Assembly (NCBI GenBank): GCA_029210545.1
Contig: JARGFV010000009.1
Span: forward strand, 1-41,048
Source: a bacterium
GTDB taxonomy: Bacteria > BMS3Abin14
Length of the DNA stretch: 41,048 nt
Reading direction: 5' to 3'
Within the stretch, counting starts at the first letter, position 1; the number at the start of each line of letters is the position of its first letter. Position numbers and translations under genes: made by a program. The notes beneath the pieces are model-generated. The model made no database searches, was not told the origin of the DNA, and saw only the letters and a program-made list of their open reading frames with translations. Below, in pieces: positions 3,269 through 41,048 of the stretch.

Positions 3269-3570
3269 GAAAACCTCACCAGTGAATAATGTTGCGTTTC
3301 GACCGCAGTTGCGGCCGCACCGGTGAGGCCCACGGGAGGACCAGTTCGTAACTTGAAGGAGATCCTGTTGTCTCGAGAACACCCCTGCATCGCGAAAGCC
3401 CGGGAGGTGAGCGGCTCGTATGTGTCAGACTGTGTTCTTTAGTATATGGCAGGGCCTTTCATACGGCCCATGTTACCACTTACAGAATCCCTCAGCTGCT
3501 GAACTTCAAGTTATATATCAAACTGGACTCATGCAGGCCTCTTACGACCGGTCCAGATTACTTCCAGAAA
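3269..3570 (-). other. Leader between 6S RNA and fthC
   Basis: No convincing gene is present. On the minus strand it holds a T-rich stretch (TTTTCT) just after the 6S 3' end, a small GGGCC/GGCCC hairpin near 3450-3470 and a CCGCA/TGCGG hairpin near 3305. I looked for ZTP or THF riboswitch consensus elements and did not find them. Confidence 0.4.
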
Positions 3571-3747
3571 ACCCCCGCCCGTTGCCGTGGTCAAGTTCAG
3601 CTTTTGAACCTGCTCGACCAGGTGGGTTTCCCAAGGAGCGTTTCAGGCTTTTCGCGGTTGCGAACATGCACACCACGCCCGCAATGGGAGCCCCGTCTAC
3701 AGAGTGTTGGCTCAAAAGTAACAGGCCTCCACGAACAGGGCAGGGGT
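3571..3747 (-). ncRNA. ssrS: 6S RNA (SsrS)
   Basis: A 177-nt candidate between zapA and fthC, the conserved ssrS position in Proteobacteria. The two ends form a long closing stem: the 5' segment CCCCTGCCCTGTTCGTGG pairs with the 3' segment CCACGGCAACGGGCGGGG with small bulges. A large open region and an apical hairpin region lie between, and TTTTCT follows the 3' end. This fits the 6S architecture, which mimics an open promoter and binds sigma70 RNA polymerase. Exact ends are estimated from the stem. Synteny and structure together make this likely; a covariance-model search was not possible. Confidence 0.85.
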
Positions 3748-3837
3748 CATGTTCTATTTATCAGAAAGCTCCTCTCCCATCAAGACCCGAAATCAGCGAT
3801 CGATCCTGTTCACTATCCGGTCTGCTGATTCCGGGTG

Positions 3838-4631: not shown

Positions 4632-4669
4632 ACTGACTGTCAACGGTTCACTGTGTACTGTTAACCACA
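4632..4669. repeat. Heptamer tract forming the 3' end of the SPOR gene
   Basis: On the minus strand the tract reads GTTAACA-GTACACA-GTGAACC-GTTGACA-GTCAGTC, period 7 with consensus GTnnACA. The last codons and the stop codon of the SPOR gene lie inside it, so the repeat has entered or supplied the coding end. Confidence 0.6.
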
Positions 4670-5268
4670 AAACCTTTCAGGTTTCGTTCTTCCCTCAGTT
4701 TTTTCAGGACCCGTCCGGCCTCCTTCTCACCCCCGTACGGCCCGATCCTGACCCGGTACCAGACGCCGCGGTCGCCGAGATCGGCTCTTACGACGGTCCC
4801 TGCATAGCCCTCACCGCCAAGGCTCTCGAGGAGCCTGGAGGCGGCCTCTCTCTTTCCGTAGGAAGCGACCTGGAGCATGATGGCCCCACTCCTGGCCACT
4901 GCTGCGGAAGTCTCAACAGCAGGAGCAGGAGTAGACGTAGAAATTGGAGGAGAGGCAGTGCCGGGCGCTTCCGTTGCAGGAGGATCCCGCTTTGCCGGTG
5001 TATGCTCCCGCTGTTCGGTCAGAGTCGTGTAGAAAGTCACCGGAGCCTGGCTGTCCACACCCGGCCTGCCGCTCGGGGCGGTGACCCCCTGGTCGGCCGC
5101 GGGGGGCGACTGGACCGTCTCCGGTTTTTCCATGGCCTTGCGATACCCGTAGAGATACCCGGCAAGTCCGCTTCCGGCCGCGAGGAGCACAACGATGCTG
5201 ACCGCAAGGCTGAACTGCAGCGGGGTCAGGCGAACGAGCTCCCGCGGCTGGGTGGACCTGCGAGCCAT
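4648..5268 (-). CDS. SPOR-domain membrane protein
   Basis: A 206-residue bitopic protein with a short basic cytoplasmic head, one transmembrane helix (about 18-42), a Pro/Thr/Ala-rich periplasmic linker (about 45-125) and a C-terminal SPOR domain (about 130-205, containing VASYGKREAASRLLESL and WYRVRIGPYGG). SPOR domains bind denuded glycan at the division septum, as in DedD and FtsN. The ATG at 5268 has AGAGG 8 nt upstream and begins 2 nt after the argS stop. An in-frame GTG at 5274 is less likely. The C-terminus ends in a heptamer repeat. Which division factor it equals cannot be told. Confidence 0.87.
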   Translation of the reverse strand: MARRSTQPRELVRLTPLQFSLAVSIVVLLAAGSGLAGYLYGYRKAMEKPETVQSPPAADQGVTAPSGRPGVDSQAPVTFYTTLTEQREHTPAKRDPPATEAPGTASPPISTSTPAPAVETSAAVARSGAIMLQVASYGKREAASRLLESLGGEGYAGTVVRADLGDRGVWYRVRIGPYGGEKEAGRVLKKLREERNLKGFVVNSTQ

Positions 5269-17651: not shown

Positions 17652-17676
17652 GGGAGGTTAAGAGCAGGGGAAACAC

Positions 17677-17749
17677 AGGGAGGAGGCAGGAGGGAGGAGG
17701 GAGGAGAAAGACAGAGCGAAGCGCAAAGAACAAAGCGCGAAGAAAGATC
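17677..17749. repeat. Two abutting heptamer tracts
   Basis: GGAGGCA-GGAGGGA-GGAGGGA-GGAGAAA is followed within a few bases by AGCGAAG-CGCAAAG-AACAAAG-CGCGAAG. Both have period 7 with different units. The CGCAAAG unit recurs in the tract at 37809. Confidence 0.75.
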
Positions 17750-17805: not shown

Positions 17806-17850
17806 CAGGGACAAAAAAAAGAGCGGCCCCGATCGGCCGCCCTTTCCACC
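17806..17850. repeat. Left arm of a ~43-bp inverted repeat flanking msrA
   Basis: This 45-nt block is the reverse complement of 18751-18793, apart from two extra As in an A tract. Weaker similarity extends outward about 40 nt on both sides (GTGTCCCCTG ... TTAAA). The two arms enclose the msrA remnant and each contains a terminator hairpin. Confidence 0.8.
17813..17840 (-). terminator. Terminator downstream of msrA
   Basis: On the minus strand GCGGCC-GATCGG-GGCCGC is followed by TCTTTTTTTT. This is a classic Rho-independent terminator 65 nt after the end of the msrA remnant. Confidence 0.8.
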
Positions 17851-18750: not shown

Positions 18751-18793
18751 GGTGGAAAGGGCGGCCGATCGGGGCCGCTCTTTTTTGTCCCTG
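18751..18793. repeat. Right arm of the inverted repeat flanking msrA
   Basis: Reverse complement of 17806-17850 with two fewer As. It lies about 100 nt upstream of the msrA start codon, so the pair encloses the whole pseudogene at a spacing of about 900 bp. Confidence 0.8.
18761..18786 (+). terminator. Plus-strand terminator hairpin upstream of msrA
   Basis: GCGGCC-GATCGG-GGCCGC-TCTTTTTT on the plus strand is the mirror copy of the msrA terminator. There is no gene on this strand for it to serve. Confidence 0.65.
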
Positions 18794-19152: not shown

Positions 19153-19218
19153 GCTCCTCCCTCCTCCCTCCTCCCTCCTCCCTCCTCCCTCCCTTTCCAC
19201 TTTCCACTTTCCACTTTT
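19153..19218. repeat. CCTCCCT and TTTCCAC heptamer array upstream of glgP
   Basis: About five CTCCTCC units run directly into three TTTCCAC units and a T tract, all with period 7. The array ends about 100 nt before the glgP start, so expansion or contraction could change the glgP upstream region. Confidence 0.85.
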
Positions 19219-26070: not shown

Positions 26071-26091
26071 AATTTAATCTCCGCGCTGTTT

Positions 26092-26250
26092 TTGATAGGG
26101 TCGCAAAAAGTCCAATCCGGGACTTTTCGCTCCACGGAAAGGGAAAAGCGTCGTTTTCCCTTTCCTCACAAATCAATGACTTACAGTGCAAGTCATTGAT
26201 TCGGGCGCCCCGCGCGGGGCGCGTTGATGGACTTTTTGCGAGTCCATCAA
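26092..26250. repeat. Five-hairpin element, complete copy (159 bp)
   Basis: Bounded by imperfect 23-bp terminal inverted repeats: the outer TTGAT matches, then three mismatches, then TCGCAAAAAGTCCA is perfect against the other end. Inside are five hairpins in a row: AAAAGTCC/GGACTTTT; a 12-bp GGAAAGGGAAAA/TTTTCCCTTTCC; CAATGACTT/AAGTCATTG; an 18-nt GC palindrome; and TGATGGACT/AGTCCATCA, which uses the right terminus. No frame for a transposase and no clear target duplication. It begins 3 nt past the galT stop and ends close to glgA. Confidence 0.9.
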
Positions 26251-26252
26251 TT

Positions 26253-27290
26253 TTATATCTCCGCCTCCCTGAGGAACCTCGCGGCGTCCTCGGGAGAGGT
26301 GGGGTTGATCTGGAACCCCGTGCCCCACTCGAACCCCGCGATCATCGTCATCCTCGGAACGAGCTCCAGGTACCAGTGGTAGTCGCTGCTGATGCTGGTC
26401 CAGTATTCCGGTTTCCCGGCGCGATAGGCCTCCGGCGGCGACGTGTGAAGGATGAAGTTGTAGGGCGGATCGTTGAGGACCCTGCTCAGCCTTGCCAGCA
26501 GTTCCTTGACCACCGACGCGAAATGCTGGAGGTGGTCCTCGTCAATGGTCGAGAAATCATGGTTGTGGCGCTTGGGGGCTATCCTCAGCTCGAAGGGGAA
26601 GCTCGAGGCAAAGGGGGTGAAGGCGACGAACAGCTCCTCGTTGATGACGATCCGATCCCCGTCTTCGAGCTCCTGGTGGATGATGTCGCACATCATGCAC
26701 CGCTCCTTGCGCTGGTAGTAATCCCTCGCGCTGGCGAGTTCCACGGCCACGAGGCTGGGCGTAACAGGGATGGCGATGATCTGGGAATGGCTGTGGCAGA
26801 GGCTGGCGCCGGCCTCCGATCCGTAGTTCTTGAAGATCAGGACGTAGCGGAAGCGGCTGTCGCGTCTCAGGTCGGACAGCCTGTCACGGTAAACGGAAAA
26901 AACGTCCCGCAGGTGGGCAATGGAAAAGTCCACCATCTGTTCATCATCGTTGGGCGTTTCCACGATGACCTCGTGGGCGCCGAATCCGGACACGACGTCG
27001 TAGATCCCCTTTCCGTAACGCTCCTGCGAGCTTTCGATGGTCAGGGCCGGGAACTTGTTGGGTATGACCCGGACCCTCCACCCTTCGGAGTTGGGAGCTG
27101 TGCCCTGGTCCCTTATGGCCATGATCTCGGGGGGCGTACGGTCCTCGTTCCCGGGGCAGAAGGGACATACGCCCTTGGGCGCGGGCTTGCCGGGCTTCTC
27201 ATGCCTGTGGATATGTGTAGGTCTCATCCCCCGCTCCGTGGCGATGATGACCCAGGTTTTCCGGATGGGATCGTATCTCAGTTCCGACAT
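26253..27290 (-). CDS. galT: Galactose-1-phosphate uridylyltransferase family protein
   Basis: A 345-residue HIT-superfamily nucleotidyltransferase: zinc-site CPFCPG (Cys42, Cys45), PNKFPAL, FKNYGSEAGASLCHSHSQ with catalytic His168 in HSHSQ, and a C-terminal half with CMMCDII and the APKRHNHDF segment. GalT exchanges UMP between UDP-glucose and galactose-1-phosphate. In an alpha-glucan operon without glgC, a related role such as nucleotide-sugar phosphorolysis is possible but unproven. ATG with GAGGAG upstream. The five-hairpin element follows its stop codon at once. Confidence 0.9.
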   Translation of the reverse strand: MSELRYDPIRKTWVIIATERGMRPTHIHRHEKPGKPAPKGVCPFCPGNEDRTPPEIMAIRDQGTAPNSEGWRVRVIPNKFPALTIESSQERYGKGIYDVVSGFGAHEVIVETPNDDEQMVDFSIAHLRDVFSVYRDRLSDLRRDSRFRYVLIFKNYGSEAGASLCHSHSQIIAIPVTPSLVAVELASARDYYQRKERCMMCDIIHQELEDGDRIVINEELFVAFTPFASSFPFELRIAPKRHNHDFSTIDEDHLQHFASVVKELLARLSRVLNDPPYNFILHTSPPEAYRAGKPEYWTSISSDYHWYLELVPRMTMIAGFEWGTGFQINPTSPEDAARFLREAEI

Positions 27291-40966: not shown

Positions 40967-41048
40967 TTGACAGGGTCGCAAAAAGTCCAATCCGGGACTT
41001 TTTGCTCCACGGAAAGGGAAAAGCGTCGTTTTCCCTTTCCTCACAAAT
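40967..41048. repeat. Five-hairpin element, copy 3 (left part only)
   Basis: The first 82 nt match 26092-26173 with two differences, including the CGCAAAAAGTCCA terminus, the AAAAAGTCC/GGACTTTTT hairpin and the 12-bp GGAAAGGGAAAA hairpin. One difference lengthens the first stem by a base pair. It lies 60 nt upstream of secD and is cut by the window edge. Confidence 0.88.

Follow-up and report, generated by a model that had tools for sequence, protein, structure and literature searches.

A hairpin-rich, modular MITE family with ends resembling those of an IS1182-related insertion sequence

The repeat investigated here is a 155-bp element on the plus strand at positions 26094 to 26248 of a contig of 41,048 nucleotides, the whole of which was analysed and is called the window. 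It represents a new family showing the type II MITE features that were tested, with mobilisation in trans as a prediction, and very probably it is a type II MITE family recognised in trans by a DDE transposase that belongs to an insertion sequence related to IS1182. Judging from the sequences compared, the family appears to be mobile. The transposase would bind the motif GAYnGnnTCGCAAAAAGTC at each end and cut AANNTT-type sites with a stagger of 6-7 bp, where the element would be joined so that the flanks are duplicated; surviving insertions are almost all between genes. The interior is a mosaic of hairpin modules, one that duplicates and shrinks, and does not define the element. The family provides a deep, poorly known bacterial lineage with a dominant repeat, a candidate parent for it and insertions of differing age that number in the hundreds. 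The genome carrying the window (2.72 Mb) is designated G000 and the other genomes compared G001 etc.

A 159-bp repeat at 26092-26250 had been described in an earlier note on this DNA. The repeat is present, and the element proper lies at 26094-26248, the outer TT/AA belonging to the flanking target site. These limits follow from the statistics of target duplications, as exact duplications of 6 or 7 bp begin just outside GAT...ATC and none of exactly 5 or 8 bp occur; the sequence of the copy was checked. The left terminal inverted repeat, GATAGGGTCGCAAAAAGTCCA (26094-26114, plus strand), recurs in relatives, and the right one (26228-26248) reads GATGGACTCGCAAAAAGTCCA on the minus strand. The description of the terminal repeats as near-perfect holds for their core and not for the whole repeat, the ends being identical at 18 of 23 positions. 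The five adjacent hairpins were likewise found, with stems of 11, 12, 12, 7 and 8-9 bp, all given here on the plus strand. Hairpin h1 (26103-26130) consists of the left repeat arm and an internal inverted copy of it. Fold and copy alignment define h2 (26136-26165) and h3 (26171-26201), each with a perfect 12-bp stem, and h4 (26205-26222), with a GC-rich stem of 7 bp, while h5 (26226-26248) is the right repeat folded on itself, as seen from the fold and from comparison of the arms. The repeat folds as DNA at -48.1 kcal/mol compared with a shuffled mean of -21.8 (z -8.3). In the lowest-energy fold the two element ends are paired together and h2-h4 are retained, so that a stem joining the ends competes with h1 and h5, and the five serial hairpins are one of two good folds. 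The element has no coding capacity; open reading frames crossing the copy extend from neighbouring DNA and look spurious.

Exact 6- or 7-bp target duplications flanked 28 of the 48 two-ended elements of G000, with about 1.6 expected from shuffled flanks. Twenty-four were of 6 bp (shuffle mean 1.5) and four of 7 bp (0.1), and no exact duplication of 5 or 8 bp was found. Over 11 genomes duplications occurred at 65 of 126 copies (one of 127 copies had been dropped because of short flanks), about 9.2 being expected from within-genome shuffling. An AANNTT site was present in 20 of 29 six-bp duplications. The window copy itself has an imperfect duplication, its left flank GTTTTT (26088-26093) being identical to the right flank AATTTT (26249-26254) at only four of six positions. 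It lies closely 3' of the galT stop codon, and comparison of the orthologous junction revealed galT and glgA adjacent and without the element in three relatives, G001, G002 and G006. The names galT, glgA, ymdB and secD are taken from the earlier note and from reading of the translations alone.

The proposal that the family resembles a MITE or a composite REP could be upheld in its first part, by the inverted repeats, the duplications, the empty junction and the ends in common with an insertion sequence. The second part was not borne out. A RAYT (Y1) transposase spreading the family in the manner of REP/REPIN-type repeats would fit the hairpins, the intergenic position, the many copies and the Y1 matches found in 8 of the 12 genomes of the host's taxonomic family. 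REPs, however, would not be expected to have target duplications, which are present here, and a substantial MITE match occurred at only two of 14 Y1 loci (L277 and L282), at least hundreds of bases from the gene and never at gene ends. A RAYT origin was therefore rejected, and we regard it as extremely improbable.

Copy number and distribution were examined in the host genome and beyond. The genome-wide search with the core TCGCAAAAAGTC yielded 376 matches in the 2.72-Mb genome and none with the reversed control; a preliminary search gave 373 candidates, 40 of which were scored. In a 416-kb sample of G000, comprising 20 stretches and the window, 51 merged loci made up about 1.9% of the bases, which by simple scaling corresponds to about 300 loci genome-wide; contigs C1-C3 were taken whole, and the density is approximate because the other stretches were picked with the positions of end matches known. 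The search of relatives detected the element in 11 of the 12 genomes of the host's taxonomic family and in none of 374 other genomes. The single element-free genome of the 12, G001, is a single contig of 100% completeness. Plasmids, phages and viral contigs gave no match, the last of these searches using an exact pattern, and plasmid- or phage-borne spread was rejected on this basis. For 96 of 127 copies the closest copy was in the same genome, indicating that the element multiplied within lineages. The most uniform sampled copies were those of G003 (n=13, mean identity 97%, 11 exact duplications); as copies of relatives were picked by similarity to the window copy, divergent ones are hidden from such values. 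Locus L077 carries at 4634-4732 an array of modules like h1-h2-h3-h4 with no recognisable terminal repeats, which is perhaps an old decayed copy.

The copies noticed at both window ends were confirmed as partial copies on the plus strand. That at 1-73 comprises h3-h5 with the GATGACTT/AAGTCATC arm and the right end, followed by AACCTT, and that at 40969-41048 comprises the left end, h1 and h2, preceded by GACCTT. Both mark the limits of the window because the contig breaks there. The end core of the element was found within 150 bp at 19 of the 30 ends of 15 large G000 contigs (0.6 expected), and the MITE family is thus associated with assembly breaks in this genome.

As to gene context, the family had been described as always intergenic in the window. 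The window copies do lie between genes or at contig ends, and 36 of 37 evaluable G000 loci of the 416-kb sample were outside predicted genes, so that the description nearly holds for the sample. Elsewhere, inside a broken IS1634-type transposase frame in L161 (G000:C154), a MITE copy was observed from about position 2067 onward; it exemplifies insertion into another mobile element, and this transposase was rejected as a partner. Fourteen of the 51 loci were less than 300 bases from a stretch end and were excluded from the gene-context count. Genes were called by a simple codon score, and several loci overlap the end of a called gene by up to 120 bases, probably as a result of over-long start choices. 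The sole locus inside a called gene is a 21-bp match, which was also counted in the orientation tally of 28 loci.

With regard to the mover, one PF01609 match in G000 was a 520-aa IS1182-like protein (DUF772 and DDE_Tnp_1), flanked by the ends GACGGCATCGCAAAAAGTATC upstream and GATGGACCCGCAATTAGTC downstream, both of which resemble the MITE ends. The 5' ends of the IS1182-like remnants of G009 and G007 are GACGGACTCGCAAAAAGTATC and GATGGCTTCGCAAAAAGTATC. Compared with the right end of the MITE, the 5' ends of the insertion sequences were identical at 15/20 (G000), 17/20 (G009) and 16/20 (G007) positions, and the IS1182-related ends can be written as GAYGGnnTCGCAAAAAGT. An IS end of this kind beside a transposase was seen in only three of the 12 family genomes. 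Relatives of the transposase were found in 20 of the 386 genomes searched, four of these in the host's taxonomic family. In G146 such relatives have the ends GACGGGGCGGCAAAAAG and the duplications AAATCTA and AGCTTT, and one in G130 has the ends GATTCCGGCGCAAAAA and the duplication AAACATT; in end design and in duplication length (6-7 bp), intact relatives of other lineages thus agree with the MITE. Such ends with no clear duplication were observed in G370 (protein 61% identical) and on a Microvirga plasmid, and no duplication was found at the flanks of the relatives in L177 and L283. The flanks of the G000 insertion sequence, AACCTT and AATATT, likewise showed no matching duplication. The G000 transposase aligns without a stretch that in its relatives surrounds the motif RAGxE and in which the catalytic glutamate presumably lies. 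As this stretch is missing, the parent copy in G000 is probably inactive.

The candidate partner was compared with family models. NF033551, the model of the IS1182 family, was the best match of the transposases of the IS group, the four scanned proteins scoring 116, 159, 185 and 190 bits, all below the cut-off of 270 bits; NF033593 (ISNCY/ISDol1 group) gave 38-63 bits against 325 for these transposases. A target duplication of 6-7 bp is known from ISDol1. The candidate partner agrees with the IS1182 family in its best model and differs from it in the sub-cut-off scores, in the ends GAYnG...CGCAAAAAG and in the 6-7 bp duplications. The transposase of L166 was rejected as a partner, since no MITE-like ends flank it. 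In the same locus (G003:C29) a composite MITE was seen at 993-1290, followed by a second, truncated one beside this IS1182 transposase, which scores above the family cut-off. At L286 and L290 of G006 the left end of the MITE copy is CGCAAAAAGTAYGATTC, which is more like the IS end CGCAAAAAGTATCATTC than the usual left end is and may represent an intermediate.

These data also bear on the reading that the MITE was moved by a different, undetected transposase and that the IS1182-like remnants are cousins with similar ends. No intact parent was found among the 12 family genomes, and in G003 no relative of the IS1182-like transposase was detected despite the uniform MITE copies, which could be due to an assembly gap; the scan, moreover, covered the transposase families PF01609 and PF01797 only. 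On the other hand, in three genomes the transposase gene has beside it an 18-bp end core that is also found in the MITE, and intact relatives of the insertion sequence give the same duplications as the MITE. A different mover is accordingly considered unlikely, and the IS1182-related transposase is preferred as the putative one.

The interior of the elements was found to be modular. Elements with both ends ranged from 46 to 564 bp, and a 23-bp remnant was also observed. The 46-bp forms, consisting of h1 alone, occurred at three sites, and the 23-bp form carries an exact AACTTT duplication. In the longest forms, a unit of about 82 bp made up of h1 and h2 recurs up to five times ahead of h3, h4 and h5; the added units carry stems of different sequence. 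Modules were probably gained and lost through recombination or slippage between repeated arms, and the short forms could, from their sequences, have arisen by deletion between the arm GGACTTTTTGC of h1 and its repeat in the right end. The nested series of 23-564 bp allows module duplication, and selection versus palindrome repair, to be tested.

In the last hairpin, the paired change of the arms that had been noticed between copies of the window proved to be real and recurrent in 28 aligned copies. The h5 arms were exactly GATGACTT/AAGTCATC in nine copies and exactly GATGGACT/AGTCCATC in six; among the other copies, three pair at 8/8 positions and ten at 6-7/8. Of all stem cells in the 28 copies, which derive from 11 genomes and seven genera, 93.9% were paired, compared with 40-55% when the partners were slid. 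Structural covariation was confirmed by eight pairs in which both partners had changed (26 cells, compared with 8.1 after shuffling). In h1 the left end covaries with its internal partner and not with the right end, the pair C-G being replaced by U-A in 4 of 28 copies. Mismatches on the plus strand comprised 148 G.T and 175 A.C cells, or 40 and 78 distinct cases, numbers that are inflated in both classes by the poorly aligned inner pairs of h3.

The covariation raises the question whether the structure is kept as an RNA, a terminator or an mRNA-stabilising element for the neighbouring genes, with mobility being secondary. The strong RNA fold of the repeat (z -8.5 versus shuffled sequence) would agree with this, as would the excess of A.C over G.T mismatches if wobble pairs were tolerated on the minus strand; the excess would fit a role of that strand or a mutational bias. 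In contrast, orientation relative to same-direction neighbours was evenly divided (14 same, 14 opposite), and the context was that of ordinary gene spacing, 27 of 36 MITEs being in a co-directional context compared with 247 of 317 for all adjacent gene pairs. One terminator-like site was found (0.8 expected), and the number of hairpins varies freely. No named RNA family matched the element, as an Rfam search of the window gave only 6S RNA and one tRNA at the gathering score. An RNA role of the plus strand is unsupported by the orientation and by the G.T and A.C mismatches, and such a function for the neighbours is doubtful as the reason for the structure.

The stems thus reflect a pairing constraint or palindrome repair, with no sign of RNA function on the plus strand. 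An even chance is given to the paired changes having arisen by template switching in palindromes (quasi-palindrome correction) and not from selection for folding. Template switching would explain the near-perfect stems of differing sequence in added modules and the absent orientation bias. The co-change of the h1 left end and its internal partner, the point held against it, is equally explained by selection; as an account of the stems, template switching is compatible with the type II MITE explanation. A rather speculative alternative is that the interior hairpins help the element to multiply, single-strand folding (as a cruciform, on the lagging strand or in a copied intermediate) being selected in each module. 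If this is true, a MITE with a structure-coded, module-repeating interior would have persisted longer than its autonomous parent throughout an entire lineage.

Comparison with known systems supported the assignment as a type II MITE. Chunjie of Geobacter uraniireducens and the QMITEs of Coxiella are described in the review PMC10969869 as short elements without genes that carry repeats at their ends, are flanked by target duplications, lie mostly between genes, vary widely in size and have only their ends in common with the partner insertion sequence. The present family agrees with them in all these features and is set apart from that description by the IS1182-related partner, the five covarying hairpins and the repeated h1-h2 module. 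BOX elements of Streptococcus pneumoniae contain an inner module in a variable tandem array that is enclosed by end modules (PMC3049150); they likewise are modular with repeated inner units, and inverted-repeat ends, target duplications, a matching insertion sequence and a different host distinguish the present family from that description. REPINs and BIMEs with RAYT transposases are, according to PMC3116915, high-copy intergenic hairpins with compensatory changes, as here, whereas the present family has target duplications, a DDE-type partner and no link to Y1 genes. The core TCGCAAAAAGTC was absent from the literature on repeats that was searched, and the family is undescribed in the searched literature, including the available parts of PMC10969869, PMC3049150, PMC3116915 and PMC8147514, a scope that excludes ISfinder and most subscription papers.

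Other features of the window were also observed. The Rfam match to 6S RNA lies on the minus strand at 3568-3749 (110.9 bits). A perfect, GC-rich and terminator-like inverted repeat of 36 nt has its arms at 17815-17850 and 18751-18786, about 900 bp apart, and brackets a frame which we take to be msrA-like and which looks broken. Outside this repeat, purine-rich inverted arms were detected at 17666-17706 and 19161-19201.
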